Assembly: GCA_016932915.1 (NCBI GenBank)
Contig: JAFGBY010000178.1
Coordinates: 1-37,579, forward strand
Reading direction: 5' to 3'
From: Acidobacteriota bacterium
GTDB lineage: Bacteria; Acidobacteriota; DATKUA01; JAFGBY01
DNA length: 37,579 nt
The position numbers and the translations under genes were made by a program. The notes beneath the pieces were generated by a model. That model was not told where the DNA came from and did not search any database. It saw only the letters and a program-made list of their open reading frames with translations. This document shows, one piece after another, positions 3,748 through 37,508 of this stretch. How positions within the stretch are numbered: position 1 is the first letter of the stretch; each line of letters starts with the position of its first letter.

Positions 3748-3915
3748 GTCATTGCGAGCAAAGCGAAGCAATCTGTTGAATAAACACGGTTGTATCAGAT
3801 CGCCGCGGTCGCTCACACTCCCTCGCGATGACATCTTTTATCGCCAGGTGGCCTGTCCTGAGCGTAGTCGAAAGGAATTCGCTGGTAATATGAAGATTCC
3901 CGCTTTCGCGGGAAT
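3748..3915. repeat. Second cluster of interspersed palindromic repeats
   Basis: GTCATTGCGAG (3748-3758)/CTCGCGATGAC (3822-3832); CTGTCCTGAGCGTAGTCGAAAGGA (about 3853-3875); ATTCCCGC-TTTC-GCGGGAAT (3896-3915). Confidence 0.75.
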
Positions 3916-3988: not shown

Positions 3989-6115
3989 TTAATCGAAATT
4001 GTATTTCTGTAGTTCGGGAAGGTTTTCCAGTTCCTTCGCTCGGGCTTCGGTGTAGCCGAGGCGGCGGAAGTTCAGCAGGCCGCCAGGTTTATGGCAGTCC
4101 TTGCAGGTGTGGCCTTCCTTCTGTATCGCGTGGTTTATCATCAGGGTTCCCATCTGGCGCATCCAGCGCGGCTTGATGTTATCCCGGTTGCCCTCATCGA
4201 GCGGGTAGTCGGTTTTCCATTTGCCCACCCCGAAGTACGCCATGAACTCATCCATCATATATACCTTGAAAAGCCACTGGTACATACGTTTAACCATCGG
4301 GTGCTGCAGCGCGGTCTCCACGGAGAGCATCGGGTTGCCCTGCTCGAAGTATGTCTTGTAATCGAACGGGATGATCATCGCGCCGAACGGCCCGAGGTTC
4401 GCATAATCCTCGTACATCCTCGCGTTGAATACCTTGAAGGGGTAGATCTTCGAAGTCCCCAGGTTCATCACCGGGCGGAGCTTCGTCTCCACGACTTCAG
4501 CCCTTTCCCCGACAAGATCCGGATCCTGCTCGATAAAGGAATTTCCTTCCTTCAGTCCCGGCAGGGTGAGGCCCTTCACTTTGTCGTATTTCGCGATGTG
4601 ATCCATCAGCGGGTTGTATTCCGGGTTCTTGTTCGGGTTCGCGCCGAGCGCGTTGGCGAGGAAGGTGCCGTTATTGTTGAACCAGAGGTATTCGACCGCC
4701 TTGTCCATATCACCGGTGACGAGTATCTCCTTCGGATGGTAGTAACCCTCTTCTTCCACGAATACAGGCTGAGCCCAGTCGGTGAAGATGAGGTTCGATT
4801 TATGCAGCTTCGTGATGTGGCAGGTCTCGCAGGAGACCTTTGCGATATGCCCGTTCAGGATCGCTCTGGTCTTGGTGTTCTTGATATGCGGCGCCGCGGT
4901 GTGGCAGCGTTCGCAGGATACTTCTTCATTCGGCAGGTCGTTGGAAACAAGATCAGTGCCCTGCAGGCCCCTGGCGATCTTATGCCCGCGTGTGGTATGG
5001 CAGTCGATGCACTGCATACCAGCAGCGGCGTGTACATCCCACTCAGGATCGAAAGGCGTAGCCCTTTTTGCCGATGAATGTAAAAATCTTATATTTTTGT
5101 AGCCCCTGTTGTGAGCGGCTTCATTGCCTTCGAACTGGTCACCGCCCAGGTTGTGCTGGTGGCATCTCAGGCACATCTCCGCGCGCGGCTTCATAACGCC
5201 CATAGCCGCTTTCATGCTGCGGTCCTGGTTCCAGCGTTTGCCGACTCCATCATCGAAAACGTATTTATGGTTCATGTCATATGTAATCGAATGGCAGATG
5301 AGGCAGTCGATAGCCTGTTGCGCCTGGTGCGGAGTGCTCAGCCCCGGGAGCATCCTCTCGGATGGCGGCCCATATAGCCCGCCTACATGGCACTGCCCGC
5401 AGCCGACGCTTACCATATGTTCTTCGCCGTGCGCCGGTTTAGCCTTGATGAGGTCAGCCCAGCCGGTCCAGGTGAATGTACCGGTCATCCCGCAGGCGCG
5501 GTCGATCTTGCCGAGCGGTATCTTGTGCCAGCCCGCGTTTACCTTTTCGCCGTTGTAGCCGTATGTTGTGAAGCTGGAAGATGTGGAGAAGAGTTTAAAG
5601 TGGACGGAAGCAAGGACGTCATCCATCGTGCCGATTTCCTTGTAATCCCCATCATCCGTTTTTACCATCATAGTCTTATGGCACTGGAGGCATGTCTCCG
5701 GCCCCTCGTATTTACGGATTCCGTTCTCACGGAACTGCTCAATATGTTTGAGGTTCGCCTGTTCCAGGAAGCTGCCCGTCTTGAACCGGAGCTGTACGCG
5801 GTCTTCCTGTACGACCTCCTCATCCTTGTATTCGTTGGTATCTGCAAGCGCCTGTTTTTCTAGGAGTTCCGCCTGCACCTCGCGGGCAATCTCCTCGAAT
5901 TCAAGGTCGCTTACCTCAACGGAGTTCGGGTATTCCACAGTGGCGAGTTTATCGCCTGTGTAGTACCTGAAGAACGCCGGGTAAGCCCATGCGTATGCAA
6001 TATATAAAACGAATATCACGATGACGAAAATCGTCACCTTTCTTCCCCGTTTGGTCCTGGTATATTCCCTGACCGGGGAAAGTTTCCCAGCTATAAGCTT
6101 AAAAACATTCTTCAT
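3989..6115 (-). CDS. Membrane-anchored octaheme c-type cytochrome, octaheme tetrathionate reductase (OTR)-like
   Basis: 708 aa, N-terminal TM (KVTIFVIVIFVLYIAYAWAY), eight CXXCH motifs (CLQCH, CGQCH, CLICH, CLRCH, CIDCH, CERCH, CETCH, CKDCH); DVHAAAGMQCIDCHTTRGHKI and NGHIAKVSCETCHI resemble the OTR family as I recall it. Confidence 0.8.
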   Translation of the reverse strand: MKNVFKLIAGKLSPVREYTRTKRGRKVTIFVIVIFVLYIAYAWAYPAFFRYYTGDKLATVEYPNSVEVSDLEFEEIAREVQAELLEKQALADTNEYKDEEVVQEDRVQLRFKTGSFLEQANLKHIEQFRENGIRKYEGPETCLQCHKTMMVKTDDGDYKEIGTMDDVLASVHFKLFSTSSSFTTYGYNGEKVNAGWHKIPLGKIDRACGMTGTFTWTGWADLIKAKPAHGEEHMVSVGCGQCHVGGLYGPPSERMLPGLSTPHQAQQAIDCLICHSITYDMNHKYVFDDGVGKRWNQDRSMKAAMGVMKPRAEMCLRCHQHNLGGDQFEGNEAAHNRGYKNIRFLHSSAKRATPFDPEWDVHAAAGMQCIDCHTTRGHKIARGLQGTDLVSNDLPNEEVSCERCHTAAPHIKNTKTRAILNGHIAKVSCETCHITKLHKSNLIFTDWAQPVFVEEEGYYHPKEILVTGDMDKAVEYLWFNNNGTFLANALGANPNKNPEYNPLMDHIAKYDKVKGLTLPGLKEGNSFIEQDPDLVGERAEVVETKLRPVMNLGTSKIYPFKVFNARMYEDYANLGPFGAMIIPFDYKTYFEQGNPMLSVETALQHPMVKRMYQWLFKVYMMDEFMAYFGVGKWKTDYPLDEGNRDNIKPRWMRQMGTLMINHAIQKEGHTCKDCHKPGGLLNFRRLGYTEARAKELENLPELQKYNFD

Positions 6116-6753
6116 TTTTTCGGACTCCTTTTCTTAACCGTTTGACTCTCAACCGTATGGTAGCCGGTGATCATAGATTCAAGAAGCGATGTCAGTTTCT
6201 TGCCCGTAGTGGAGAGGTAGAGATGGACGATCAGGAACGTAACGGCAAGGAAACTGAACAATGTATGTATAACCGCGATAGATTTGAACGCGGAGAGATT
6301 CGATATCCATTCAATATCTTTCGTGATGCCGTAAAGGACTACACCGGATACAATCTGCACCGGCAGGATAAAGAGCATCAGGAAGAAATACGACACCTGC
6401 TGCAGTGGATTGAACTTCCTCTCCTTGCTCGCGGGATAGGGCGAATGGCCCTTATTGAAAATACCGAAGAGATAGTAGCGAGCCTGGTTGAACAGCTCTA
6501 CCGGCAACGCTTTCGTGAATCGGATGTAATATTTTATCCTCCCGGTCGTGACTTCATATATAAACCAGAACAGGAAATTCAAGAGGAACAGCATCGAAGT
6601 AATGTTGTGTACTTTCACAAGGGAAGCGAGCGAAAGGCTATCGAAGTTTTCGCTGTAGTGCATCAGGATGCCGGTCACCGCCAGAAGGATAAAGAACAAT
6701 GCGTTGAGCCAGTGCCATATTCTCTCGGGCAAGGTAATCAGGTATATCTTCAT
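6112..6753 (-). CDS. Cytochrome b561 / Ni,Fe-hydrogenase-type b-cytochrome-like membrane subunit
   Basis: 213 aa, about 4 TM; conserved His in ERIWHWLNALFF, GILMHYS, VKVHNITS, IAVIHTLFSF. ATGA overlap with both neighbours. Confidence 0.85.
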   Translation of the reverse strand: MKIYLITLPERIWHWLNALFFILLAVTGILMHYSENFDSLSLASLVKVHNITSMLFLLNFLFWFIYEVTTGRIKYYIRFTKALPVELFNQARYYLFGIFNKGHSPYPASKERKFNPLQQVSYFFLMLFILPVQIVSGVVLYGITKDIEWISNLSAFKSIAVIHTLFSFLAVTFLIVHLYLSTTGKKLTSLLESMITGYHTVESQTVKKRSPKK

Positions 6754-7622
6754 TTCTTTTTACCTTTCCCTTTCTTTTTTCCCATCATGATTCTGAGGAT
6801 TCCGTGGCCGGAAGCGCCCAGGAATGCAAACACAATAAGCAAGGTACCAAAGATTTCCACTAGGGAATTTCTCGTCCCGCCTACGAGATAAATCCTGGAG
6901 AGCATGGTCTCGGCGGTCGCTCTGTCAGATTCCGCCTCATCCTGAATAAGGAAAGTCGCCATCTTGTTTTCCCTGCTGTGGCACTCGGAACATTCCCTAA
7001 CTGATTTTTCCTTCTCCGGTATCAGGTGGCGCGCTGCATATCTATTAGGGTTCAACTGGATATGGCAGGCGATGCAGGGGATCTTCTCGAGGTGGAGCTG
7101 CGCCTGTGCATGCCAGGTGTGGTAAGCCTCGATATGAACCGGGGCGAGATACTTGTTGTCCTTCGGGTTCACCCCGAACTGATGGCATTTCAAGCACTGT
7201 TCGTTTCTCTCGGTCAGCTCCATATGCTTTGGTGACCTGTCCTGGTGTACATCGTGGCATTCATAGCACTGCAGGTCTTTATGGACGCTCTGTTGCAGTG
7301 AGTGTTCGATATCCCTGAAAAGGACATTCCTTTCCTTCTCATGGCATTCGAAACATGAAAGCACTGTCGCGTTTTTATGAGGATAGGTCGTTATCCCTTT
7401 GTGGCACTCGATGCATTCATGTTTTTTCCCAAGCGTGTAATGCCAGGATTGCTGGAATTTTTCCGGTGAGATGTAGAGAGAAACCGGGATACCGAGGCTG
7501 TTTTTCAGGGACGGTTTCATCTCTTTGTTCTGATGGCAGCCTGCGCAGTCCAGGGCTTGTTCAGAAAAGACTGCAACAGGCGCCATCAGTAAAAACAGGA
7601 TTAAAAAATTTGTCAGTTTCAT
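6750..7622 (-). CDS. Heptaheme c-type cytochrome with signal peptide and C-terminal membrane anchor
   Basis: 290 aa; seven CXXCH (CAGCH, CIECH, CFECH, CYECH, CLKCH, CIACH, CSECH); C-terminal TM VEIFGTLLIVFAFLGASGHGIL and KKKGKGKKK tail. Confidence 0.85.
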   Translation of the reverse strand: MKLTNFLILFLLMAPVAVFSEQALDCAGCHQNKEMKPSLKNSLGIPVSLYISPEKFQQSWHYTLGKKHECIECHKGITTYPHKNATVLSCFECHEKERNVLFRDIEHSLQQSVHKDLQCYECHDVHQDRSPKHMELTERNEQCLKCHQFGVNPKDNKYLAPVHIEAYHTWHAQAQLHLEKIPCIACHIQLNPNRYAARHLIPEKEKSVRECSECHSRENKMATFLIQDEAESDRATAETMLSRIYLVGGTRNSLVEIFGTLLIVFAFLGASGHGILRIMMGKKKGKGKKK

Positions 7623-7924
7623 TTACAGAAAATCTCCTTCATTTTCTGAAGTACATCTTTCAAGCGTCTATCCTTGAGGGAATACTTGATCAGGCTGCCG
7701 TCCCTGGTGGATTTCAATATTCCACGGTCACGCATAAGCCTCAGGTGTTGAGATATATTAGGCTGCGACTGGTCGCATGCGGCGGCGATGTCGTTTACGC
7801 TCATCTCCCCGTTAAGCAGTAATTCGATTATCAGGAGTCTTGTTGAATTAGCCAGGACTTGAAAACATTCAGCGGCTTTTTCGGTGTCTTGTATAATATT
7901 ATCCAGATTATCTAACAGTGCCAT
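7619..7924 (-). CDS. ArsR-family winged-helix transcriptional regulator
   Basis: 101 aa; ANSTRLLIIELLLNGEMSVNDIAAACDQSQPNISQHLRLMRDRGILKSTRDGSLIKYSL is a typical ArsR HTH/wing. Cysteines at positions 20, 50 and 100; no ELCVCDL metal motif. Confidence 0.9.
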   Translation of the reverse strand: MALLDNLDNIIQDTEKAAECFQVLANSTRLLIIELLLNGEMSVNDIAAACDQSQPNISQHLRLMRDRGILKSTRDGSLIKYSLKDRRLKDVLQKMKEIFCK

Positions 7925-7998
7925 ATTATATTATCTCCAAATATTTAAACAGCTTGCTAAAAACTTACAGTTAACAAAAGGCAAATAAAGACATTCGG

Positions 7999-8027
7999 AT
8001 ATTATTATATGCTTATGTGCATGTCAA
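7999..8027 (-). promoter_or_regulatory. Putative promoter of the arsR-cytochrome operon (TTGACA-N17-TAATAT)
   Basis: Plus strand ATATTA (7999-8004), 17 nt, TGTCAA (8022-8027); 75 nt upstream of the ArsR start. Confidence 0.55.
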
Positions 8028-8028
8028 A

Positions 8029-8068
8029 CAATATTCGTTAAATGAATGAACTATATTGAAAAATAGTT
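8029..8068. promoter_or_regulatory. Overlapping dyads adjoining the -35 box; candidate ArsR operator
   Basis: CAATAT (8029-8034)/ATATTG (8053-8058); ATTC-N7-GAAT (8033-8047); AACTAT (8049-8054)/ATAGTT (8063-8068). Confidence 0.35.
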
Positions 8069-8130
8069 ATATAAGGACAAAAATTTAATATTCAAGGAAT
8101 CCGGCAAGAATACTTCCGGTTGATTTTTCC

Positions 8131-8159
8131 TTGTTAGCTTAAGGGCTTTGTGTTATACA
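8131..8159 (+). promoter_or_regulatory. Putative sigma70-type promoter for the AGCS-LeuCD-like operon (TTGTTA-N17-TATACA)
   Basis: TTGTTA 8131-8136, TATACA 8154-8159; ATG at 8198. Confidence 0.5.
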
Positions 8160-8197
8160 GTGCCAAATATAAAGAGTAAATTTCAGGAAGAAGGATT

Positions 8198-9649
8198 ATG
8201 ATTCTTGATAAACTTTTAGATTTCACAATAAAGTCCTCAGACTTTATGTGGGGATTACAGACTATCGCGCTCCTGCTGCTTGCGGGAGTTATTTTGACTC
8301 TATTGACACGCTTTGTGCAGATCACAAAGTTAGGAAAATCAATTAAGCTGGTTCTGCTTGGGGCAGTAGGTAAGGATAAATCCAAGGACAAAGAAGGCGA
8401 TATCACACCGTTTGCCGCATTGATGACGGCGCTTGCCGCTACGGTAGGTAACGGGAATATCGCGGGCGTCGCGACTGCGATTGCCAGTGGCGGCCCCGGA
8501 GCTCCGTTCTGGATGTGGCTTTCCGGATTTTTCGGGATGGCTACCAAGTATGCTGAGGGGTACCTGGGAGTACGCTTCCGTAAGGTTGCCGAGGACGGTA
8601 CGATGGCAGGCGGCCCGATGTATTATATCCGCTATGGCCTTGGAGATAACGCATTCTCAAGATTCCTTGGCGGGATGTTCGCGATATGCGGAGGTATGGC
8701 TGCTTTACTGGGGACAGGCAATATGGCGCAATCCAATTCAATCACGCTTGGCGCGGTAGAACAGCTGAAGAAATATGGCATCATCTCTGAGTCATCCGGG
8801 ACGACTTATTCTGTTTTAATTGGTTTTGTCCTCGTGATTCTTGTCGGCATGGTCATTATCGGTGGTATTAAAAGGATTGGTGCTGTAGCGGAAAAAATTG
8901 TGCCCTTCATGATTCTTTTTTATTTTGGCGGTGCTTTGATAATTCTGATTAAATATTTCACAGCGATTCCAGCAGCTTTCGCACTGATTTTTAAATGCGC
9001 TTTTTCGTTTAAAGCTGTAGTTGGTGGGGCAGTGGGCGTAACTATTAAAGAGGCAGTCCGTTTTGGAGTTGCCAGAGGTGTTTTATCGAATGAAGCAGGC
9101 CTTGGTTCCGCATCGATAGCTCAGAGCGCAAGTAAGACCGAGAATCCGAGCGAGATGGGGCTCGTTGCCATGACAGGTGTTCTTATCGATACAATTATAG
9201 TCAATACACTGACGACCCTGTCGATTATATTAACCGGCGCATGGGTATATACCAGGGCGGCAAATTACACAGGCCCAAATCAGCTGGATAGTATTGCCCT
9301 TACTCAATATGCCTGGGATTCTGTATTTACAGGAGGCGGAGTGTTTATTGTTTTCGCCTCGCTGATGTTTGGGTTTACAACACTGATAGGCTGGTCGTAT
9401 TACGGCGAACAATGCTTTGAATATTTATTCGGCTTGCGGGCGGTCAAGCCTTACCGTCTTGTTTACATTCTATTGATCTTCTTCGGAGCGGTACTCCAGG
9501 GCAATTATATTCGTATCGTTTGGAATATCGGAGATACGGCAAACGCATTTATGGCAATACCTAACCTTATCGGGTTGATATTGCTATCAGTACTCGTTGC
9601 GCGAGAGACACGACAGGCTTTTTCAAAAAATAAATTTGAATTAGGATAG
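8198..9649 (+). CDS. AGCS-family sodium:alanine/glycine symporter
   Basis: 483 aa; FAALMTALAATVGNGNIAGVATAIASGGPGAPFWMWLSGFFGMATKYAEGYLGVRFR and GVARGVLSNEAGLGSASIAQ signatures. Confidence 0.93.
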   Translation: MILDKLLDFTIKSSDFMWGLQTIALLLLAGVILTLLTRFVQITKLGKSIKLVLLGAVGKDKSKDKEGDITPFAALMTALAATVGNGNIAGVATAIASGGPGAPFWMWLSGFFGMATKYAEGYLGVRFRKVAEDGTMAGGPMYYIRYGLGDNAFSRFLGGMFAICGGMAALLGTGNMAQSNSITLGAVEQLKKYGIISESSGTTYSVLIGFVLVILVGMVIIGGIKRIGAVAEKIVPFMILFYFGGALIILIKYFTAIPAAFALIFKCAFSFKAVVGGAVGVTIKEAVRFGVARGVLSNEAGLGSASIAQSASKTENPSEMGLVAMTGVLIDTIIVNTLTTLSIILTGAWVYTRAANYTGPNQLDSIALTQYAWDSVFTGGGVFIVFASLMFGFTTLIGWSYYGEQCFEYLFGLRAVKPYRLVYILLIFFGAVLQGNYIRIVWNIGDTANAFMAIPNLIGLILLSVLVARETRQAFSKNKFELG

Positions 9650-9656
9650 ACAAAAT

Positions 9657-10898
9657 ATGAAACAAACTGCGATTGAAAAGATAATTTCAAACCATTCAGA
9701 TCATCAGGTCAAAGCTGGCGAGATTGTCTGGATGAAACTGGATGTTCGTTCCGCAAGGGATTTCGGCGGCGCGAACGTTGTCAAAAACCTCAAGACTTAT
9801 TATCCTGGCCAGCCGCTGGATGATCTAAAAAAGACCTTCTTCACTTTTGATACAGTTGTCCCGGCTAATAATATTCCGTATGCAAACAATCAGCAGATAT
9901 GCAGGGATTACGCTGAGGAGATGGGGATAAAAGTTTATGACGTAAACGCCGGGATTGGCAGTCATGTCATGATAGAAGAGGGAAGGGCGCTTCCCGGTTA
10001 TACCCTCGTCGGCACGGACAGCCACTTGAACATCTTCGGGGCAGTCGGCGCTTTTGGACAGGGTATGGGCGATCAGGATATTGCATTTGCTTTCCGCAAC
10101 GGGTTTACGTGGTTTGAAGTACCAGAGAGCATGAGGATAATTCTGAATGGTGAAATCAAATACCCGGTTAGCGCGAAAGATGTTGTCCTGGCTGTTTTAG
10201 AGAGAATAGGCTCTAAAGGCGCGCTGGGAAGGGCGATAGAATTCACAGGCAGCGTAGTGGACAGACTTGATCTTGCGGGCAGGATCACACTTGCATCAAT
10301 GGTTACCGAGATGGGCGGAATTATTGGATTAATATCTCCGAACAAAGCAATACTTGATGAACTCAAGAAGAAATCCGGCCATTACACATTGGAACCTATT
10401 GTCGCTGATGAAGGCGCTGAGTATGTTGAGACAATCGAGATGAATCTGAATGGACTTGAACCTATGATCGCGGCGCCACCGAAACCGGATAATGTCGTGA
10501 AAGTATCCTCACTGAAAAAAGTTGCTGTTGATTCCATTTTTATCGGCTCATGTACTAACGGCAGGACAGAAGATTTTAAAGTAGCTGCGGATATTCTCCG
10601 GGGCAGAAAAGTGCATCCTAAAGTAATGATGAAAATTGTACCTGCGACGAGAAGAGTATTTACCGAAATGCTCAAATTGGGAATAGTACAGGAACTGCAT
10701 GAAGCCGGCGCGATTATCTCCAACCCGGGATGCGGCGGATGCGCCAGTGGACAAATCGGGATGACCGGTAAAGGAGAAGTTCAGGTCAGCACCAGTAACA
10801 GGAACTTCCTTGGCAAACAGGGTGATGGCGAGACTTACCTTGCTTCACCAGCTGTTGCGGCAGCCTCAGCGATAACCGGCTATATAACAGCCCCATAA
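9657..10898 (+). CDS. Aconitase-superfamily dehydratase large subunit (3-isopropylmalate dehydratase/homoaconitase-type)
   Basis: 413 aa; GTDSHLNIFGAVGAFGQGMGDQD, IFIGSCTNGRTEDF, SNPGCGGCASG (4Fe-4S cysteines). Confidence 0.9.
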   Translation: MKQTAIEKIISNHSDHQVKAGEIVWMKLDVRSARDFGGANVVKNLKTYYPGQPLDDLKKTFFTFDTVVPANNIPYANNQQICRDYAEEMGIKVYDVNAGIGSHVMIEEGRALPGYTLVGTDSHLNIFGAVGAFGQGMGDQDIAFAFRNGFTWFEVPESMRIILNGEIKYPVSAKDVVLAVLERIGSKGALGRAIEFTGSVVDRLDLAGRITLASMVTEMGGIIGLISPNKAILDELKKKSGHYTLEPIVADEGAEYVETIEMNLNGLEPMIAAPPKPDNVVKVSSLKKVAVDSIFIGSCTNGRTEDFKVAADILRGRKVHPKVMMKIVPATRRVFTEMLKLGIVQELHEAGAIISNPGCGGCASGQIGMTGKGEVQVSTSNRNFLGKQGDGETYLASPAVAAASAITGYITAP

Positions 10899-26757: not shown

Positions 26758-28104
26758 ATGGCAAAAGTATTTCCGTTTCGCGCGTACAGATACAACAAGA
26801 AAAAAGTTAAACTGGAAAATGTAATCACTCAACCTTATGACAAGATCAACACTGATCTGCAGGGGGAGTATTATAAAAAGGATTCTCATAATGTAGTTCG
26901 TATGCTTCTGGGCAAAGAACTCAAAGGTGATAACGATCTGTGCAATAAATATACGAGAGCGCATTGTTATTTCTGGCACTGGGTTGAGAATGATGTAATG
27001 GTAAGGGATGGAAAACCTGCTTTTTACGCATATCACCAGGAATACAAAGTAGAAGGTAAAAAAGTTGTCCGTAAAGGTTTCATCGGCCTCGCTGAAGTTG
27101 AACCTTTCGGTGGTACGGTTAAGGCCCATGAGAAGACACTGGATGCTCCGAAAGCCGACAGGTTGAATCTCATGAAAGCCACGCATACAACACAGGGACA
27201 GATTTTTATGCTTTATTCCGACCCAAAACTGACCGTGAATAAAGTTCTTGAAGAGCAGATTGCAGGCAAAAAACCGGACATGCAGCTGAAAGATGATTAT
27301 GATGAAACTCATAAACTCTGGATTGTGGATGATCCGGCAGCAATCAAAAAAATCCAGAAAGCTATGAATGACCAGAAACTCTTCATCGCAGATGGCCATC
27401 ACAGGTATGAGACTGGAGTGAATTATTACAATTTCATGAAAGAAAATGGCGTAGAAAAAATCGGTAACGAGAATATTCAAAATCTCATGATGACTTTTGT
27501 CAATATCGATGAGCCCGGGCTTACAGTCCTGGCTACACACCGCCTGGTTCATTCATTGAAGGATTTCAATAAAGATTCATTTCTGAAGAAGATGGAGAAG
27601 TACTTCCGCATTGAAGAGATTTCATTCAAGGGCGGCGAGGATAAAGCGAGAAAAGAACTGTTTGAGAAAATGGATAACAAGGCTGAGACTGAACACGTCT
27701 TCGGCGTGTATTTCAAGGGTGATAAACAGTTCTACCTCCTGGAACTTGTTGATGACAACGTTATGCTGAAAGTTATCAAAGGCAAACAGTCCGATGTCTT
27801 CAAGAAGCTGGATGTCAGCATCCTGCATAACCTGATTCTTGAGAATCATCTCGGAATCGGTGATAAGCAGCTCAAGGAGCAGACGAATGTTAAATACGTC
27901 CGTTACCGTGATGATGCTATTGACAGGGTGAAAAAGGAAAACTTCCAGATTGCGTTCCTGTTGAATCCGACTTTGGTTAAAGAAGTTAAAGATGTTGCGG
28001 AGAACAATGAGAGAATGCCGCAGAAGTCTACCGATTTCTATCCAAAACTTCTTTCCGGGCTTACGATCAACCGTTACAACCTGGATAAAGACAGGGATTT
28101 ATAG
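26758..28104 (+). CDS. DUF1015 family protein
   Basis: 448 aa; FPFRAYRYNKKKVKLENVITQPYDKI, GLAEVEPFGGTVKAHEKTLDAPKADRLNLMKATHTTQGQIFMLYSDP, LFIADGHHRYETGVNY. Confidence 0.88.
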   Translation: MAKVFPFRAYRYNKKKVKLENVITQPYDKINTDLQGEYYKKDSHNVVRMLLGKELKGDNDLCNKYTRAHCYFWHWVENDVMVRDGKPAFYAYHQEYKVEGKKVVRKGFIGLAEVEPFGGTVKAHEKTLDAPKADRLNLMKATHTTQGQIFMLYSDPKLTVNKVLEEQIAGKKPDMQLKDDYDETHKLWIVDDPAAIKKIQKAMNDQKLFIADGHHRYETGVNYYNFMKENGVEKIGNENIQNLMMTFVNIDEPGLTVLATHRLVHSLKDFNKDSFLKKMEKYFRIEEISFKGGEDKARKELFEKMDNKAETEHVFGVYFKGDKQFYLLELVDDNVMLKVIKGKQSDVFKKLDVSILHNLILENHLGIGDKQLKEQTNVKYVRYRDDAIDRVKKENFQIAFLLNPTLVKEVKDVAENNERMPQKSTDFYPKLLSGLTINRYNLDKDRDL

Positions 28105-28128
28105 AATCCTGTTTTTATAGATTTCTTT

Positions 28129-28158
28129 CCTCGTGGGTTTTTCCCACGAGGATTTTTT
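28129..28158 (+). terminator. Rho-independent terminator after the serine-type cluster
   Basis: CCTCGTGGG-TTTTT-CCCACGAGG followed by ATTTTTTAT. Confidence 0.88.
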
Positions 28159-28258
28159 ATATTATCTTATGTATACTTCCTAAGATTAATACCTCTGGTT
28201 TTAGAAATTGATATATGCTATTCTACGTTCAACTTATTATTCCAAAGGAGTGATACTA

Positions 28259-29068
28259 TTGAGGAAAAGTATAATTATTATGCTCGTTCTCTTATTATCT
28301 GTTTTCCTGCTGACCGGTTTTGCTGACGAAAAACCTGCTGAAGAAAAGAAAGCAGATGAGAAGAAGGCGGAAGTCAAGAAAGATGGAAATGCTGAGAAGA
28401 TTAAATTCGAGATCTCATTCGGCATCGATCTTTCCGGGGGCAATACCGAAGCGCTGGGTGTAAATGCGGATGTTTATTTCAACTGGAAGACAGAAGAGAA
28501 TACGAATGTAGTTCTTTCTTCCAAGATGAGATACCTGGAATCTAATGGTGAACAGATCGCAGATAAAATCGATTTACAATTACTGTTTGATTACATGCTT
28601 GGAAGTAAAGTTACGATGTTTGTTTATGGTAAACCTTCTCGTGACCTGAACCAGCAGATCGACTTGCGAGTAGAAACCGCCGGTGGTTTAAAGTATGACA
28701 TTGTCGACAATTACCGCTCGGATCCGGCAATACTGAATACTGATCTTTCAATAAGTGCTGCCATGGTTTATGAAATAACCAACAGGGAAGAAGCAGAAGA
28801 AGCTGAAAAACTGATGCGGCTCTCGCTTCGCCCTAAATTCAAAAAAGAACTCGGAGAAAACCTTGAATTGGAACTCGAGTTTTTCTGGCAGCCGAGTATA
28901 TCGGATTTTGATGATTACAGGATGCTGCTCAATACAAAACTGGCATTCAAGGTATCGAAATCAATTTCGTTTCTCCTGAGTTTTGAATCAGAGTATAACA
29001 GCATAGTACCCGCAGGAGTTGAAAAGCAGGATTACAGGCTGTTAAATCAGATTAAGATTAATTTCTGA
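28259..29068 (+). CDS. DUF481-like predicted outer-membrane beta-barrel protein, TTG start
   Basis: In-frame TTG at 28259 preceded by AAAGGAG; signal peptide, charged linker DEKPAEEKKADEKKAEVKKDGNAEK, then FEISFGIDLSGGNTEALGVNADVYFNWKTEENTNVVLSSKMRY. Confidence 0.75.
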   Translation: MRKSIIIMLVLLLSVFLLTGFADEKPAEEKKADEKKAEVKKDGNAEKIKFEISFGIDLSGGNTEALGVNADVYFNWKTEENTNVVLSSKMRYLESNGEQIADKIDLQLLFDYMLGSKVTMFVYGKPSRDLNQQIDLRVETAGGLKYDIVDNYRSDPAILNTDLSISAAMVYEITNREEAEEAEKLMRLSLRPKFKKELGENLELELEFFWQPSISDFDDYRMLLNTKLAFKVSKSISFLLSFESEYNSIVPAGVEKQDYRLLNQIKINF

Positions 29069-29087
29069 TTAAAATAGTATAAAATAA

Positions 29088-29124
29088 AAACCGGTTTGCT
29101 ATATTCAAGCAAACCGGTTTTTTC
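29088..29124. terminator. Bidirectional rho-independent terminator
   Basis: AAACCGGTTTGCT-ATATTCA-AGCAAACCGGTTT followed by TTT, A-run on the other side; between convergent genes. Confidence 0.88.
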
Positions 29125-29140
29125 TATCTATTAATTTTTA

Positions 29141-32100
29141 CTAAGCAGTTGGAATGTTCTGGCTTTTAGAATGGCTGAATATCGAACGCATGATTCCAAG
29201 TCCAACTTTATTCCGCAAATCATCGAGGTAAGTATAAAATAGAGGTACTACAAACAGGGTACTGATTGTCGATGCAAGCAATCCTCCGGTGAAAGCTCTT
29301 CCAAGTGGTGTATATGAGATGCCCGCAGTTGAGCCGATACCAATTGTCATAGGAAGCAGGCCAAATACTGTTGTAAGCGCAGTCATAAGGATAGGCCTGA
29401 ATCTCAATCTTCCTGCTTCGATAATAGCCTCCATTCTTTCCATACCTTCTTTTCTCAACCGGTTTATCAGGTCAATAAGTACAATTGCGTTATTCACGAC
29501 AACACCGATGAGTATTATCAAGCCGATATAAGCCATTGGATCCATAGTGGTATTGGTTAAAAATAGTAGCCAGAAAGCGCCCCAGAAGGCGAATGGAATT
29601 GCCGCCAGGACAGAAAGCGGTAGGATGAAACTTTCAAAGAGGACACCCATAAGGAAGAAAACAAAGGTGATAACCAACGGGACAACCTGCGTCATTCCGG
29701 ATTCTGTATCCTGCATCCTTCTGAACCGGTCACCGAAACTCCAGCTGTACCCCCGCTTTAAATCCATTTTACCCATCTCTTCCGAGATTGCTCCATACAG
29801 GTTGTTCATATCATCTCTGGTTGTGTTTACTTTAACCGACAGCATTGTCCGGCGGTTTTCCCTTATCAGTTCAGTCGGGCCTCTTTCAACAATCGGTTGC
29901 ACAACAGCGCTTAACGGGATTCGTTGGCCGGAATCATTTACTACGCTCAGATTTTTAAGCTGCTCCAGGGTTTCACGGTCTTCCTTCTGAAGTTGCAGGT
30001 AAACCTCGATTTCCCTGTCCATCAGCTGGAACCTGGTGAGCATATTTCCACGAAGAGAGTATGCCACTGTACTGGCGATACGTCGCGCATTTATCCCCAT
30101 GCTCTGCGCCTTGCGCCGGTCTATCCTGAGCTGGATTTCATCTACGCCTTCTTCTTCATAATCAGTTTCCGCGCTGAGAACACCATCGATACCTGATACG
30201 CGGCGTTTTATTTCGTCAACATATTGCTCAATCTGATCCAGGTCTTTACCGAATACGCTTACTGTAATTGATGTATCGTTACCGGAGTTGTCATTCCATC
30301 CCCACTGGACATCAACACCAGGGAAAGTCGGAATTTTCTTTTTCAGATCTTCAATGACCTCATCTCGGGTCATAGGTTCATTAAGGTCTACAAAGATACC
30401 TCTTATTTTATCCCAGAGTTTACCCATCAAGAATTTTTTTGGTGGGTCATTCAGGAACACACGCAGTTGCCCTCTATGTGAACCAAATCTCGAGTATTGA
30501 ACTTTAACACCGTATTTATCATGGTTATCATCCACTATCTTTTCCAGCCTTGTAAAAATCCTGTCGGTATCCCTTAAAGTGAAATTTTCCGGTGCATTGA
30601 TGATTATCCTGAAATCATTGATATTACCTTCCAGGTTATCAGTTTGTGATATTTTGGGGACGATTATCCCCAATGTTGAGAAGAGGAAAACTAGGAATAC
30701 TACAAATGCTACGCGGTTATTGAGCACTACTCTTAAATGCTTAGTGTAGATTATATTAAGTTTCTCTATCGTCACATGATAAAGGGCGTTAAACCATTTT
30801 GCCAGACGTAGTTTTTCCGTTTTTTCCGGTTCATGGAAACGCGCTGTTCCAAGTGGAATAAAATAAAGTGCAATAAAGAGTGATGCAAGGATTGCGAACA
30901 CAATCGGCAATCCGAGGCGGCTCATGAAGAATGAAAAGACCTGGTCACCGCTCATCAGGAAGATCGGCAGGAAAACAACAATTGTTGTAAGAGTGGACAT
31001 TGTAATAGCGAGCCCAACTTCACCAGTCCCTTTGAGTGCTGATTCTCTGCGGTCCAACCCACTTTGCCTGAGCCTGAATATGTTCTCTGCTACAACAATT
31101 GAGTTGTCTACTACCATGCCAACACTGAGGATCAATCCCATCATTGTCAGCATATTCAAAGACCATCCCATGAAATAAATCACTATCAACATCATCAATA
31201 GTGACATGGGTAGAGCCAGGCTGATAATCAGTGTCATTTTAAGTTTACGAAGGAAGAAAAATAAAACCAGGAAAGCGAAAATTCCACCATATAGAGCAGT
31301 CATTTTAAATTCCTGGATTGTGTCTTTCATGACATCGCCCTGGGTGAAGATTAAGTAATATTCGAAACCCTGCATTTCCGGGTTATCTTCAAAGGCCTGG
31401 CGCATTGCCTCTTTTAATTTATCATTAAGTTCAATCGGGTTAGCCTGGTCTTCATGGAAAATCCCTATAGCAATACCAGGCATCAGGTTAACCCTGTTAA
31501 TACGCCTCTCTTCTTCGAATTCAAACCGGACATCGGCGACATCTTTAACACGGACATTGGTCCCTTCAATAACGAGGTTTTCTATTTCTTCGAGGCTCTG
31601 AAATTTAGCAATCGAACTGACGATCAAACGTTTATTTCCCTCAATGAGATCACCACCGGAGAGTATAAAATTTGTCCCCTCCAGGGTCTGCCAGAGCTGG
31701 TACAGGTTCACATTATAAGACTGGATTCGGTCATCTCTCAGGTTTATATAAATTGATTTTTCCCTTGCTCCCCAGAGTTCAACTTTAGCAACTCCGTCTA
31801 TTGTTTCAAATTTGCGCTGTACGTTTTTCTCAAGAAGCTCGAACGGATCATCAATGTCATATCCTTCTTTCATTCCAACAGCGATCATCATTACCGGTTC
31901 CTGGCTGGGTGACCATCTGTGGATGTACCTGAATTGCTGGTCTGAAGGTAATTCAGGACGAACCCTGTCGAGACGGTCTACTACTTCTCCGTATGCAAGC
32001 GCCATATCTGTGCCTGATTCAAATTCGATGAAGATACCCGAACCTCTTTGCATTGATCTCGCGCGCATTCTTTTTATGTTTCTTACCGTTCCCAGGATTT

Positions 32101-32323
32101 CCTCCACAGGTTTAGTAATTTGCTCTTCTACTTCTCTTGGACTCGCATTGCGGTAGGGATGGAAAACATAAAGATAAGGAAGGTTGAATCCATCCGGCAT
32201 CATCTTTGCCGGAATCCTCGTATAAGCAATGTAGCCTATTGTTAAAATAGCCAATAGAATCATTACAGCACTTATTGGCCTTTTCAGTGCCAGGCTTGCC
32301 AGAAAGTGGCTTTCTTTCTTCAT
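29141..32323 (-). CDS. RND-family efflux pump (AcrB/HAE-type), 1060 aa
   Basis: LALKRPISAVMILLAILTIGYIAYTRIPAKMMPDGFNLPYLYV, GLILSVGMVVDNSIVVAENIFR, IGLIILIGVVVNNAIVLIDLINRLRKEGM. Confidence 0.93.
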   Translation of the reverse strand: MKKESHFLASLALKRPISAVMILLAILTIGYIAYTRIPAKMMPDGFNLPYLYVFHPYRNASPREVEEQITKPVEEILGTVRNIKRMRARSMQRGSGIFIEFESGTDMALAYGEVVDRLDRVRPELPSDQQFRYIHRWSPSQEPVMMIAVGMKEGYDIDDPFELLEKNVQRKFETIDGVAKVELWGAREKSIYINLRDDRIQSYNVNLYQLWQTLEGTNFILSGGDLIEGNKRLIVSSIAKFQSLEEIENLVIEGTNVRVKDVADVRFEFEEERRINRVNLMPGIAIGIFHEDQANPIELNDKLKEAMRQAFEDNPEMQGFEYYLIFTQGDVMKDTIQEFKMTALYGGIFAFLVLFFFLRKLKMTLIISLALPMSLLMMLIVIYFMGWSLNMLTMMGLILSVGMVVDNSIVVAENIFRLRQSGLDRRESALKGTGEVGLAITMSTLTTIVVFLPIFLMSGDQVFSFFMSRLGLPIVFAILASLFIALYFIPLGTARFHEPEKTEKLRLAKWFNALYHVTIEKLNIIYTKHLRVVLNNRVAFVVFLVFLFSTLGIIVPKISQTDNLEGNINDFRIIINAPENFTLRDTDRIFTRLEKIVDDNHDKYGVKVQYSRFGSHRGQLRVFLNDPPKKFLMGKLWDKIRGIFVDLNEPMTRDEVIEDLKKKIPTFPGVDVQWGWNDNSGNDTSITVSVFGKDLDQIEQYVDEIKRRVSGIDGVLSAETDYEEEGVDEIQLRIDRRKAQSMGINARRIASTVAYSLRGNMLTRFQLMDREIEVYLQLQKEDRETLEQLKNLSVVNDSGQRIPLSAVVQPIVERGPTELIRENRRTMLSVKVNTTRDDMNNLYGAISEEMGKMDLKRGYSWSFGDRFRRMQDTESGMTQVVPLVITFVFFLMGVLFESFILPLSVLAAIPFAFWGAFWLLFLTNTTMDPMAYIGLIILIGVVVNNAIVLIDLINRLRKEGMERMEAIIEAGRLRFRPILMTALTTVFGLLPMTIGIGSTAGISYTPLGRAFTGGLLASTISTLFVVPLFYTYLDDLRNKVGLGIMRSIFSHSKSQNIPTA

Positions 32324-32341
32324 ATTTGAAACCGTACCTTA

Positions 32342-35300
32342 TTATTTGTTAGCTTTTCTTTTTTCAAGATAACCCTCAACGCTGATATATACTGTAGGTA
32401 TTATAACAAGCGTCAGTAGTGTAGCTGACAGTAATCCCGCAATAATTGTCCACGCCATTGGAGTCCTGATTTCAGCGCCCTCACCGAGGCCCATTGCCAT
32501 AGGCAACAAACCAAGTACTGTGGTAGCTGTTGTCATAAGGATTGGTCTTAGCCTTACAGAACCTGCTTCCACAACAGCATCTATAATCGGTATGCCGCGT
32601 TTTCTGAGCGTGTTAGTGTAATCCACAAGAACGATAGCGTTATTGACAACGATACCAATTAGTACAATTGCGCCTATACCGACTACAACACTCAATGGAA
32701 TACCACCTATCCACAGGACTAAAACTACACCAATAAGAGCGAGAGGAATCGTCAGGATGATTATAAATGGCTGAATGATCGATTCAAAAAGCATCGCCAT
32801 TACAGTGTAAACCAGGAATATCGCGAGAAGCATTGCCATCATGAGAGAGCGCATAGAGATTTCCATTTCCTTGTTCTGGCCGCTGATATCTACCGAGAAA
32901 TCACTTGGAATTTGGATGTTCCTGACATGTTTCATAATTTGTTCCGCTGCAGTTCCCAGGTCCAGGCCACTTACATTGGCCGTAATAACTGCTGAACGTT
33001 GTTGTTCTATTCGCCTGATTTCCGCAGGCCCTTCTTCCAGGTTCAAATCAGCAACAGCGCTAAGAGGAATCGGTACCTGGCTGGAAGGGGCGATGTTGAG
33101 CTTCGCTAACTCATCAAGAGTGTTTCTGTCAGCCTCTTCAACCTTTACACGGATTTCAATTTTGCGGTCTTCCTTGTTGAATTTTGTCGGTACATATCCA
33201 AGAACCTTGTTCCGAACCGTCTGCGCAACAACCGATATATCAAGGCCGTGTTTAGCAAGTCTTTCGCGGTCATAGGTAATCTGAATCTCCGGGTTTCCGG
33301 GTTGAATATTAGAGCGGACGTCATACAATCCTTCAATTTTCTCCATCTCCGTAACAACAGCTTTTGAAAGATTTTTTAATTTATCAAGATTGAACCCGGA
33401 TATCTCAACTTCGATTGGTGTTTTAAAACTGAATATCGCTGGCCTGGAGATATTTGTCTCGAGCTGAGGTATAGTTTTTGACCGGTCTCTTATCATCTCA
33501 ACAAGAGCTTCCTCTTTTTCAGCGAGGTTACCGTGAGTGGCTAGGCGTACCGTAATTTTTGCGGTATGTTCACCTTCTTCCGAATCTGTGGATGCAGTTT
33601 TTTCGGCTCCTACTACTGTCGCACGAATATCTATGCCGTCGAGCCCATTGATAAATTCATCCATCGGTTTAATATGCTCATCGGTGGATTCAAGAGGTGT
33701 ACCGACCGGCATTCTCATTTCAACATTAAATTCACCCTGATGGACTTCCGGAATGAGTTCGCTTCCCAATCCTGGTAGAATCACAAAAATAGTGAAGGCG
33801 AACAATACAACGACAGATGCCAGTACCGCTTTTTTATTTCTAATACTGGCGCGAAGGAAGCCCGGGTATGATCTTCTGATTGCTTCAAATCCTTTATCGA
33901 ATCCAAACAGTAGAATCGCTAGAATTCCACGAATGAAATAGATAAACAGGTTTACGAAATTCTTTCCGAAAAGGATCAATGTAAGTAATAATAGTAAGGA
34001 GAATTTTAAAAACACCTGCATGAAGTAATTAAGCACCAAAGTCAGTGAAATAAATGAGTAAACTACTGGATATAGTGGAAGAGTTATTATCCAGAAAAGT
34101 TTTGTAAATCTATTATTATCAGGATCAAGTTTTTTCCCCAGTGTTTTCCCATAATTTCGAGCGCTAATCGCTGCTGTTTCCCAGGCTGTGAAGCTGAGTA
34201 AATCCTGCCAGACATGGCGGATAAATGGCGCTGAAAAAATATTTCCAATGAATACAGCAATGAAACTCTGTTTAAATTCATCATCATCGTTATGCAGCCA
34301 ATGGTCAGGAAGAATTCCCTGAGAATTTGCTATGTCAGTCATAGTTTTCCAGAGAGAAAATTTATGACGCGTTACCCACATAACTATTTTGTAGATTATC
34401 AGTAAAATGAATACTGCAGGTAACAACATGAATTTAAATATCAAGTAAGCAAAACTTAAGAAAATTAGACATATTTTTAAAAATACTTCTACAAATGTCA
34501 GAATAATACCTATGACGCCTAAAACCGTATTTTTTAAGGCATTCACAAATGATATATTGTCATCGGTATTTTCTTCTCGCCATCCAGGAACTAATTCAAG
34601 TATAAAGTTATGTGTTTTGCTTATCAGTAATGGGCTTGTTAGTTTTCCTGTGCCGCTCATTTTCTTGAAATCTCTGGAAGCAAGCATCGGTATAAAGAAC
34701 AATGCCGCAATCAAGGACATGATAAGAGAAAATACGACTGTCAGTGAAAGGTCTCCAAATAACTGGCCGGCAACCCCCTCGACAAATACGATCGGTAGAA
34801 ATACAGAGATTGTTGTAAGAGTGGAAGCCGTAACTGCCCCTCCAACCTCTGATGCGCCACGTATAGCGCTTGCAACAACTTCATCTCCCTCCTCCCGGCA
34901 TCGGTATATTGACTCAAGGACAACGATTGAATTATCTACAAGCATACCTATGCCTAAGGCAAGACCTCCCAGTGACATCATGTTAAGCGTTACACTGAAT
35001 ATATTCATCGGTGCAAACGTCGCGACTACAGAAATCGGGATGGATAGGGCAATAATAAAGGTGCTGTAACCGTTTCGCAGGAAGAAGAAAAGCACGGCTA
35101 TCGCGAATATACCACCAAAAAGAGCGGTGCTTTTTACTTCATCTATTGACTGTTTGATAAAGGTTGATTGATCCGATAGAAGAGCGATATCTATATTCTC
35201 CGGTAGTTGTGCCTGTATATAATCCGGTTTGCCAGTATGCTGTTTGTTACCTCGGCCCTGATTCTGCCCGCTGTCGGCTTTTTCCTCTTTCTTCTCGGTT

Positions 35301-36343
35301 TTTGGTTTCTTGGCATCTTCTGCTTTCTTTTTCAGTTGTGCGTAATATTCTTTTAATTGGGCTTGCTGCAAAGGAGTACCGAATACTCGTTCTCTTACAG
35401 TCTGTGCAAGCTGCACAATGTTTGCATCCGCTTCCTTATATATTTCCAGTTCAACAGATTCTTTACCGTTTACATGAGTAATTACTTCACGTTCTTTATG
35501 GCCCATATAAACGCGGCCGATATCTTTTAATCGAATTTCCGCTCCGTTTCTGGTTGATACAATGAGGTTTGCTATTTCATCAAGATTAGTGAAGAGGTTC
35601 AATGTGCGAACCATATATTCAGTGTCGCCTTCTTCCAGGTTTCCGCCGGCGAGGTTTATATTTTCTGCAGCAAGGCGCTGGTTTATCTGGTTGATATCGA
35701 GGCCGATGTTAGTAAGTTCCTTTTCGTTGAGGTCAATGATTATTTCTTCTTCAAGACCGCCCTTGACCTTTACTGCCGCAACTCCAGGAATTGCTTCAAG
35801 GTCACGCTTTAGGTCTTCTTCTGAAATTTCCCTTATAAGATAGAGATCTGTGGATTTTACTTCCGAGCTTTTCGGATAAAGGCCGAATCTCATGATTGGA
35901 TCAAGTGTGGGGTCGTACCTGAGAACAAGCGGTCTTTCTGCTCCATCCGGTTCGATGAACTGTTCCAGCAATTCACGGACATCCTGTGTAGCGGTGTTCA
36001 TATCCGTATCCCAGGTAAATTCAAGAATAATATCTGAAAGGCCGGCCTTGCTGATTGAACTGATTTCGGTTTTATTCCGGACTACTGCCAGGATTTGCTC
36101 AAGAGGACGTGAAATAAGACTTTCCACTTCCTCAGGCGCGGATCCCTCGAATTCAGTACGGATTGTCAGGGTAGGGTAGGATATATCGGGCATCAAGTTC
36201 AATGACAGTTTATTGTAAGAGAACCAGCCGAATACAATAATAGCTAGCGCTATCATTATTACTGCGACCGGACGTTCGGTTACCAACCGGTATTGGCCTT
36301 TTATTTCATGAAGAGCGCTTTTGTTCTTCTCTTTTTGACTCAT
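32342..36343 (-). CDS. RND-family efflux pump, enlarged to 1333 aa by insertions
   Basis: TERPVAVIMIALAIIVFGWFSYNKLSLNLMPDISYPTLTIRTEFEG, GLALGIGMLVDNSIVVLESI, IGAIVLIGIVVNNAIVLVDYTNTLRKRG; large extra hydrophobic region in the middle. Confidence 0.93.
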   Translation of the reverse strand: MSQKEKNKSALHEIKGQYRLVTERPVAVIMIALAIIVFGWFSYNKLSLNLMPDISYPTLTIRTEFEGSAPEEVESLISRPLEQILAVVRNKTEISSISKAGLSDIILEFTWDTDMNTATQDVRELLEQFIEPDGAERPLVLRYDPTLDPIMRFGLYPKSSEVKSTDLYLIREISEEDLKRDLEAIPGVAAVKVKGGLEEEIIIDLNEKELTNIGLDINQINQRLAAENINLAGGNLEEGDTEYMVRTLNLFTNLDEIANLIVSTRNGAEIRLKDIGRVYMGHKEREVITHVNGKESVELEIYKEADANIVQLAQTVRERVFGTPLQQAQLKEYYAQLKKKAEDAKKPKTEKKEEKADSGQNQGRGNKQHTGKPDYIQAQLPENIDIALLSDQSTFIKQSIDEVKSTALFGGIFAIAVLFFFLRNGYSTFIIALSIPISVVATFAPMNIFSVTLNMMSLGGLALGIGMLVDNSIVVLESIYRCREEGDEVVASAIRGASEVGGAVTASTLTTISVFLPIVFVEGVAGQLFGDLSLTVVFSLIMSLIAALFFIPMLASRDFKKMSGTGKLTSPLLISKTHNFILELVPGWREENTDDNISFVNALKNTVLGVIGIILTFVEVFLKICLIFLSFAYLIFKFMLLPAVFILLIIYKIVMWVTRHKFSLWKTMTDIANSQGILPDHWLHNDDDEFKQSFIAVFIGNIFSAPFIRHVWQDLLSFTAWETAAISARNYGKTLGKKLDPDNNRFTKLFWIITLPLYPVVYSFISLTLVLNYFMQVFLKFSLLLLLTLILFGKNFVNLFIYFIRGILAILLFGFDKGFEAIRRSYPGFLRASIRNKKAVLASVVVLFAFTIFVILPGLGSELIPEVHQGEFNVEMRMPVGTPLESTDEHIKPMDEFINGLDGIDIRATVVGAEKTASTDSEEGEHTAKITVRLATHGNLAEKEEALVEMIRDRSKTIPQLETNISRPAIFSFKTPIEVEISGFNLDKLKNLSKAVVTEMEKIEGLYDVRSNIQPGNPEIQITYDRERLAKHGLDISVVAQTVRNKVLGYVPTKFNKEDRKIEIRVKVEEADRNTLDELAKLNIAPSSQVPIPLSAVADLNLEEGPAEIRRIEQQRSAVITANVSGLDLGTAAEQIMKHVRNIQIPSDFSVDISGQNKEMEISMRSLMMAMLLAIFLVYTVMAMLFESIIQPFIIILTIPLALIGVVLVLWIGGIPLSVVVGIGAIVLIGIVVNNAIVLVDYTNTLRKRGIPIIDAVVEAGSVRLRPILMTTATTVLGLLPMAMGLGEGAEIRTPMAWTIIAGLLSATLLTLVIIPTVYISVEGYLEKRKANK

Positions 36344-36404
36344 ACTACTTCTCTATCTTTTAATAGTTGTATTTACAGCTTTGAAACGATTAATGAAATC
36401 GTAC

Positions 36405-37508
36405 CTAGGATTTTTTACCGGGGATAATTTTAACCGGTGTTTTATCCTTCAATCCATACTGGCCGACGGTTATTATTTTATCGCCCGCCTTCAAGTTTTT
36501 ATTCAGGGCTTCTATATTTTCAGAATCCTGGAAACCTGTATCCAGAGTGATCTGGTTAGCGATTCCATCGCGGACAACAAATATTATAGACTGAATACCA
36601 TTATAAATAACCGCTTTTTTAGTGATGAGCAATGTATCTTTATGTGTATCAGTAATAATGTGGCATTTTACAAACATTCCAGGTCTGAGGTTTTTATCAT
36701 AATCCTGAAGGCCGACTGTTACCTTGACTGTGCCGCTGTCGGGATCGATGACGGGGCTGATTCGTTTGATGTATCCATAGTATGTTCTTTCTTTAAGAGC
36801 ATCGGAAGTTACTGTTGATTTCTGATTAAGCTTTATACCTGAGATATCTTTTTCAGGGATGTACACCTTGGTAATCAGGGTTTCCATATCGACTATTGAG
36901 AACAGTTTTGTGTTTACCGGTAAATAGTCTCCGTTTTTAATGTATCTAGAAGAGATAATCCCAGATATTGGAGCTTTGATATTAGTATAATTCAGCTGGA
37001 CTTTTGCTTTTTCCCAGTCAATTTTTGATTGCTCGTAGTTGTATTTTACCTGTTCGTATTCTTTTTCGCTGAGAAGTTTATCGCTGTACATCTTTGCCGA
37101 GCGGTCATACTCTCTCTGTGCTTTTTCATACGAAGATTTTGCTGAGGCTTCGCTCAACTTATAGTCCAGGTCTTCAATATTCGCCAGCACAGTACCGGCT
37201 TTTACGTACATACCTTCTTCAACATTAAGCTTAAGTATAATTCCGCTTACTTTGTTGTATACGTCTACGCTCTCTTCAGCTTCTATTGTGCTGTTATATA
37301 ACTGATAGGAAGAAATTTGTCCTTTAGTGATTGTGGTAATCTCTACCGGGATCTCATCCTTTTTTTCTTCTTCTTTTCCTGTTTCTTTGTTATCTGCTTT
37401 TTTTGCATCTTTATCGGCCTGAATTTTCTTCCCTTCCGTTTGTGAGCATCCAACGAAGAGGAGCGATATCAGAGCTAGTATCATAAATAAAGCCAATGTT
37501 CTTTTCAT
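36405..37508 (-). CDS. RND efflux periplasmic adaptor (MFP/HlyD-like) lipoprotein
   Basis: 367 aa; lipobox LLFVGCSQ; SYQLYNSTIEAEESVDVYNKVSGIILKLNVEEGMYVKAGTVLANIEDLDYKL; coiled-coil; YTNIKAPISGIIS. Confidence 0.92.
   Translation of the reverse strand: MKRTLALFMILALISLLFVGCSQTEGKKIQADKDAKKADNKETGKEEEKKDEIPVEITTITKGQISSYQLYNSTIEAEESVDVYNKVSGIILKLNVEEGMYVKAGTVLANIEDLDYKLSEASAKSSYEKAQREYDRSAKMYSDKLLSEKEYEQVKYNYEQSKIDWEKAKVQLNYTNIKAPISGIISSRYIKNGDYLPVNTKLFSIVDMETLITKVYIPEKDISGIKLNQKSTVTSDALKERTYYGYIKRISPVIDPDSGTVKVTVGLQDYDKNLRPGMFVKCHIITDTHKDTLLITKKAVIYNGIQSIIFVVRDGIANQITLDTGFQDSENIEALNKNLKAGDKIITVGQYGLKDKTPVKIIPGKKS

Follow-up and report, generated by a model that had tools for sequence, protein, structure and literature searches.

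The question raised by a 37,579-nucleotide stretch of DNA from an Acidobacteriota bacterium (contig JAFGBY010000178.1 of assembly GCA_016932915.1; hereafter the window) is what is done by a cluster of four tightly packed genes, which code for an ArsR-type regulator, a seven-heme c-type cytochrome, a cytochrome b561-like membrane protein, and an eight-heme c-type cytochrome resembling octaheme tetrathionate reductase (OTR). An earlier note on this DNA had described the cluster as a four-gene respiratory module leading from quinol to an OTR-like terminal reductase. Based on the analyses presented here, we consider it likely, with a probability of roughly 60%, that three of these genes encode a membrane-bound quinol:acceptor reductase which would work in the periplasm, probably on S-S or sulfur-oxyanion compounds. 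The location of all four genes on the minus strand (Table 1) and their overlap by exactly 4 nucleotides at each of the three junctions agree with the earlier description. So do the fifteen CXXCH motifs, of which 7 were counted in the 290-amino-acid and 8 in the 708-amino-acid protein, and the b-type membrane protein, which was identified by Pfam as a cytochrome b561. Pfam and NCBIfam profiles also matched multiheme cytochromes.

A genome scan for homologues yielded 80 named loci, and in 14 of these the heptaheme, b561, and octaheme genes were found in the same order. The ordered trio occurred in loci of the Gemmatimonadota, Zixibacteria, Myxococcota, Armatimonadota, Coatesbacteria, and Chromatiaceae, and, when the Allochromatium proteins served as queries, was recovered in each of the 18 Chromatiaceae loci examined. 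The heptaheme and b561 genes, or the b561 and octaheme genes, likewise overlap by 4 nucleotides in many homologous loci. This recurrence of gene order is far beyond chance, and the conserved core spans six or more phyla. The gene set proposed earlier thus is conserved as three genes rather than four, as the ArsR gene is absent from homologous modules, was encountered once near a solo octaheme homologue (locus L049), and was consequently rejected as a conserved partner. The regulators beside other loci vary (Rrf2 in L026, Crp/Fnr in L024). The ArsR/SmtB assignment of the regulator in the window is based on NCBIfam NF033788 (85 bits versus a 55-bit cutoff) and a match to Pfam HTH_5. In L049 (positions 6910-9692), an RND efflux gene lies upstream, and the solo octaheme gene follows a small OsmC-like gene and an ArsR gene whose product has its cysteines at places similar to those in the window ArsR.

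In the family of Allochromatium palmeri the octaheme gene was present in 29 of 96 sampled genomes (E ≤ 1e-100), the heptaheme gene was found in all eight genomes of its genus, and the genome of Allochromatium vinosum DSM 180 contains all three core genes (at about 1,679,891-1,683,692 of the chromosome). The occurrence in this model organism and in almost a third of the sampled family genomes makes the role of the octaheme branch in the sulfur cycle testable by experiment. In a tree calculated with a quick method, the octaheme proteins of the modules formed one group (17 rows, SH-aLRT 100) apart from a solo group and from the canonical OTRs. The other relatives (≤45% identity) were mostly solo genes for N-terminally anchored octaheme proteins of about 630 amino acids. 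No description of the heptaheme/b561/octaheme operon, of its separate clade, or of its occurrence in the Chromatiaceae was found in the literature searched, although this search was not exhaustive.

The octaheme subunit and its relationship to OTR

The AlphaFold model of the octaheme protein (mean pLDDT 89.2) had OTR (SO_4144; PDB 1sp3) as sole significant match in a Foldseek search against the PDB (E = 3e-15, TM-score 0.63 over the target), and hhalign aligned the protein to OTR at 100% with all eight hemes in register. Among HAO, ONR, NrfA, and OTR, only the latter was thus matched by fold, in line with the OTR-like (and predicted catalytic) subunit suggested earlier. For NrfA, HAO, and ONR no fold match was obtained in the PDB at E ≤ 10, with weak sequence matches to NrfA chains, and a motif scan detected no CXXCK motif in either multiheme protein; membership in these families was therefore rejected. 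An octaheme sulfite reductase of the MccA/SirA type was rejected as well, because all eight motifs are standard CXXCH and no fold match was found, the CX15CH pattern itself not having been scanned. Weak profile similarity (E = 1e-4 to 1e-8) links the multiheme proteins to the selenite/tellurite-associated cytochromes ExtM, ExtN, and ExtO, but the scores are far below the cutoffs and there is no Ext operon context here.

The eight heme motifs as well as Cys208, Asp326, and Lys350 are nearly or fully invariant in 74 relatives. Cys208 and Asp326 have their counterparts in Cys64 and Asp150 of OTR, which we take to line the catalytic pocket of that enzyme, and a Lys is probably shared at the same heme-2 site. 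In OTR, heme 2 is the catalytic one (PMC4484225) and is ligated by a conserved Lys, the other seven hemes being bis-His-ligated (PMC11024163). Since seven further His (H172, H321, H362, H378, H410, H423, H662) are near-invariant in the 74 relatives together with the Lys, the residue set fits seven bis-His hemes and one Lys-ligated heme. The spacing between Asp and Lys is two residues in the short relative of locus L007 and three in OTR, with an insertion between them in the long forms. The position of OTR His332, a likely heme ligand, is occupied by Phe563 and by Phe in this octaheme family, and thus the distal ligand of one heme has probably been exchanged relative to OTR. Further differences are the N-terminal anchor, the long insertions (1sp3 is about 265 residues shorter), and the separate heptaheme subunit. 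With 78 bits the protein falls far short of the 375-bit cutoff of the OTR model TIGR04315, and relatives from loci L028 and L066 score 90 and 94 bits, respectively. The octaheme protein represents a distinct, divergent clade of the OTR superfamily.

Such divergence could also mean that catalysis was lost and that the octaheme subunit serves purely as an electron conduit, as proposed for the diverged OTR relative MmcA of Methanosarcina (PMC11024163). This would agree with the score below the OTR cutoff and with the extra conserved His residues H124, H321, and H346. However, MmcA has seven hemes, is Rnf-linked, and no longer possesses the heme-2 motif or the Lys, whereas heme 2, Cys208, Asp326, and Lys350 are retained in the family studied here, and a seven-heme wire is already part of the complex. 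Membership in an MmcA-type group was rejected on the retention of heme 2 and Lys350, and loss of catalysis appears highly improbable. The same invariant catalytic-heme residues speak against the pure electron carrier that the earlier note had considered as a possible outcome.

Subunits for electron delivery

The b561 subunit matched Pfam Ni_hydr_CYTB (E = 3e-26, 92.8 bits versus a cutoff of 30.1) and contains five conserved His (in RxxHW, GxxxH, and HN motifs and in two late helices). Its best NCBIfam match was thiosulfate reductase cytochrome b, but it did not pass the cutoff of the PhsC equivalog NF011582 (137 versus 204 bits; 194 bits for the partner in A. palmeri). A subunit of the b561 family, here predicted to oxidize quinol, is shared with reductases of the PhsABC/PsrABC type, from which the core differs by lacking a molybdenum or Fe-S subunit, whose roles would be taken by the multiheme cytochromes.

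The heptaheme subunit has retained its seven motifs and about seven additional conserved His, so that every heme could be bis-His-ligated. Its AlphaFold model (mean pLDDT 58) was too poor for a fold search, with only the C-terminal helix being confident. This helix carries a conserved H-G-x-x-R motif, and C-terminal helices of a similar kind, with H-x-x-x-R, are present in the canonical OTRs of the host, other Acidobacteriota, and Chromatiaceae. Moreover, the heptaheme C-terminus matched the C-terminus of canonical OTRs by tblastn (E = 2e-11 in locus L014, 5e-7 in L016), and a b561 gene adjoins the membrane-tailed canonical OTRs wherever the sequence covered their neighbourhood. Judged from these sequence similarities, the helix and the C-terminal anchor found in membrane-bound canonical OTRs are homologous, and a shared docking helix on cytochrome b would be the simplest reading. 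Because the heptaheme subunit ends in this OTR-homologous helix, it probably sits on cytochrome b where OTR would otherwise be and conducts electrons from quinol to the octaheme enzyme, a separate protein with its own N-terminal anchor. Such a helix in common would also point to a way in which multiheme enzymes may exchange their electron-transfer subunits while keeping the same type of cytochrome b.

The host genome, which is 2.33 Mb in size and 76% complete, provides a direct comparison. It contains a second module (L008:4968-7226, G000:C18) consisting of a canonical OTR (608 bits to TIGR04315) and its own adjoining b561 gene; this OTR has a C-terminal membrane tail, with the His/Arg-bearing anchor helix that is also found on the heptaheme subunit. 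An OTR with a cytochrome b partner has been proposed before for Thermosulfurimonas dismutans (TDIS_1882-1883; PMC4911364). Both systems share with the core an octaheme subunit with a b561/PhsC-like partner, but such canonical pairs consist of only two genes and bear the anchor helix on OTR, whereas here it is located on the heptaheme subunit. The contrast with a soluble OTR drawn by the earlier note is therefore not supported: although the OTR studied most is indeed soluble, a C-terminal membrane helix and an adjoining b561 gene are found with many canonical ones. As this combination is widespread, membrane anchoring and a dedicated b subunit do not set the 708-amino-acid protein apart.

From what was computed (the genes and their conservation, the fold, and the residues that do not vary) we infer an electron path in which the b561/PhsC-type subunit would oxidize quinol with two b hemes and pass electrons to the seven-heme subunit, which its C-terminal helix would tether to the b subunit. 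The heptaheme subunit would in turn reduce the N-terminally anchored octaheme subunit, where, as in OTR, a small substrate may be reduced at the presumably Lys-ligated heme 2 close to the invariant Cys and Asp. In this host, ArsR probably regulates the operon. The chain from quinol to the octaheme protein with dedicated b and c subunits, as envisaged in the earlier note, is thus supported as a prediction by the conserved trio, the OTR-only fold match, and the invariant catalytic-heme residues. By its predicted features the complex would function as a membrane-bound OTR does, yet it fails the curated score for OTR membership.

Direction of electron flow and substrate

Tetrathionate reductase activity has been measured for a canonical OTR relative (PMC6449678), and an acidobacterial otr gene was upregulated 36-fold with tetrathionate (PMC8528874). 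In 7 of the 18 Chromatiaceae loci, a Hyb-type [NiFe] hydrogenase operon is divergent from the module operon, which suggests that the module serves as an electron sink; an OTR is located near a hydrogenase in Caldithrix abyssi, too (PMC5317091). Since the characterized relatives are reductases and hydrogenases occur in these neighbourhoods, the reductive direction is favoured. Growth tests of C. abyssi gave no support for sulfur, polysulfide, or thiosulfate respiration (PMC5317091).

The host is a probable nitrite ammonifier, since its genome contains a complete nrfHA pair (L106:832-2709, G000:C42) coding for NrfH and a full-length NrfA. As the host already possesses these genes and the canonical OTR, the substrate of the new complex is probably not simply tetrathionate or nitrite. 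Among 10 tested genomes (module-bearing or related), 3 likewise encode a canonical OTR above the cutoff. The substrate most likely belongs to the S-S or sulfur-oxyanion compounds, for example a polythionate, thiosulfate, polysulfide, or an organic disulfide. A respiratory or detoxifying reductase of nitrite or hydroxylamine would be consistent with the in vitro reduction of both compounds by OTR (literature cited in PMC4484225). The NrfHA of the host, the missing fold match to NrfA, HAO, or ONR, and the lack of CXXCK motifs make it improbable, as does the absence of any recognized nitrogen-cycle gene beside the core in the loci examined.

Several observations weigh against the proposed reduction of sulfur compounds. 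The TIGR04315 score of the octaheme protein (77.8 bits, E = 8e-22) did not reach the cutoff, and hhalign left a gap at Lys350, which is separated by an insertion of about 20 residues from the position of OTR Lys153 and was matched by loop reasoning. Around the core, the loci examined share no conserved sulfur-specific gene, and neither an uptake-hydrogenase small subunit nor DsrA was detected in the host, which is weak evidence given the incompleteness of the genome. Furthermore, the module is widespread among phototrophic sulfur oxidizers. A. vinosum has exactly one 7-heme and two 8-heme cytochromes, and some of its larger multiheme cytochromes, among which these count, lack an annotated function (PMC11267869); the single 7-heme cytochrome presumably is the heptaheme subunit of the module. 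These larger cytochromes are reported to show enhanced expression on pyrite as electron donor (PMC11267869).

The phototrophic hosts, which in the family and genus of A. palmeri live by sulfur oxidation, and the pyrite data keep in play that the same complex runs oxidatively: the octaheme subunit would be reduced by a donor in the periplasm or outside the cell (either a reduced sulfur compound or a mineral such as pyrite), and b561 would feed the quinone pool. This is doubtful, however, as the module also occurs in lineages without known phototrophs and in the present host with its NrfHA and canonical OTR, contains no gene for an outer-membrane conduit, and has canonical OTRs, which act as reductases, as relatives and a hydrogenase as neighbour in Chromatiaceae. 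Returning to the quinol:acceptor reductase, a more specific version can be put forward only tentatively, at somewhat less than even odds: a three-subunit, quinol-linked respiratory complex, widespread but so far undescribed, that purple sulfur bacteria share with deep-branching anaerobes. In it, the heptaheme subunit would replace OTR on cytochrome b and feed a divergent octaheme enzyme, whose substrate would be new and neither tetrathionate nor nitrite.

Feature coordinates and additional observations

Table 1. Features of the window (positions of the window) and of two further genomes (last row).
Feature	Position	Strand	Basis or remark
ArsR/SmtB-family regulator, 101 aa, Cys20/Cys50/Cys100	7619..7924	-	profile matches; local regulator outside conserved core
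Sigma-70-like promoter TTGACA-17-TAATAT, upstream of operon	7999..8027	-	consensus match only
Heptaheme c-type cytochrome, 290 aa, predicted electron wire	6750..7622	-	motifs, conservation
C-terminal membrane helix of heptaheme subunit (residues 253-285), proposed b561 docking helix	6768..6866	-	
Cytochrome b561/PhsC-type membrane protein, 213 aa, predicted diheme quinol oxidase	6112..6753	-	Pfam, NCBIfam, alignment
Octaheme c-type cytochrome of 708 aa with N-terminal membrane anchor; divergent member of the OTR superfamily and predicted catalytic subunit	3989..6115	-	
N-terminal transmembrane helix (about residues 28-50), positive N-terminus inside	5966..6034	-	sequence; AlphaFold helix 21-53
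Cys208, aligned with OTR Cys64	5492..5494	-	conservation in 74 homologs and alignment
Heme-2 motif C239-GQC-H243, aligned with catalytic heme 2 of OTR 1sp3	5387..5401	-	profile alignment
Asp326, aligned with OTR Asp150	5138..5140	-	conservation in 74 homologs and alignment
Lys350, proposed counterpart of heme-ligating OTR Lys153 after loop insertion	5066..5068	-	conservation in 74 homologs
Intrinsic-terminator-like hairpin, downstream of octaheme gene	3896..3915	-	consensus match only
Third OTR-like protein	G300:C196 about 40144-41733; G304:C65 about 26951-28567		

A search for operators revealed short AT-rich palindromes and nothing further. Tandem RND efflux pump genes (coding for 1060 and 1333 amino acids) with a membrane-fusion protein are located at window positions 28208-37508, and the larger RND protein contains an unusually long insertion. 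Beside the canonical OTR module of the host (L008:9329-11449), an ArsP-type permease fused to a Band-7/SPFH domain is followed by two more SPFH-like proteins.

A third OTR-like protein (open frame of about 890 amino acids; 139-145 bits to TIGR04315) was found in A. palmeri and Thiocystis minor, and the Acidobacteriota loci L017, L018, and L023 contain open frames that carry 14 or more CXXCH motifs and include an OTR-like stretch. A variant locus in Bacteroidota (L040:5766-13085) encodes a MerR regulator, a pentaheme cytochrome, a cytochrome b, an octaheme protein, and a second MerR, followed by an FAD/NAD-binding oxidoreductase that resembles sulfide:quinone reductase and by a DUF1641 protein.

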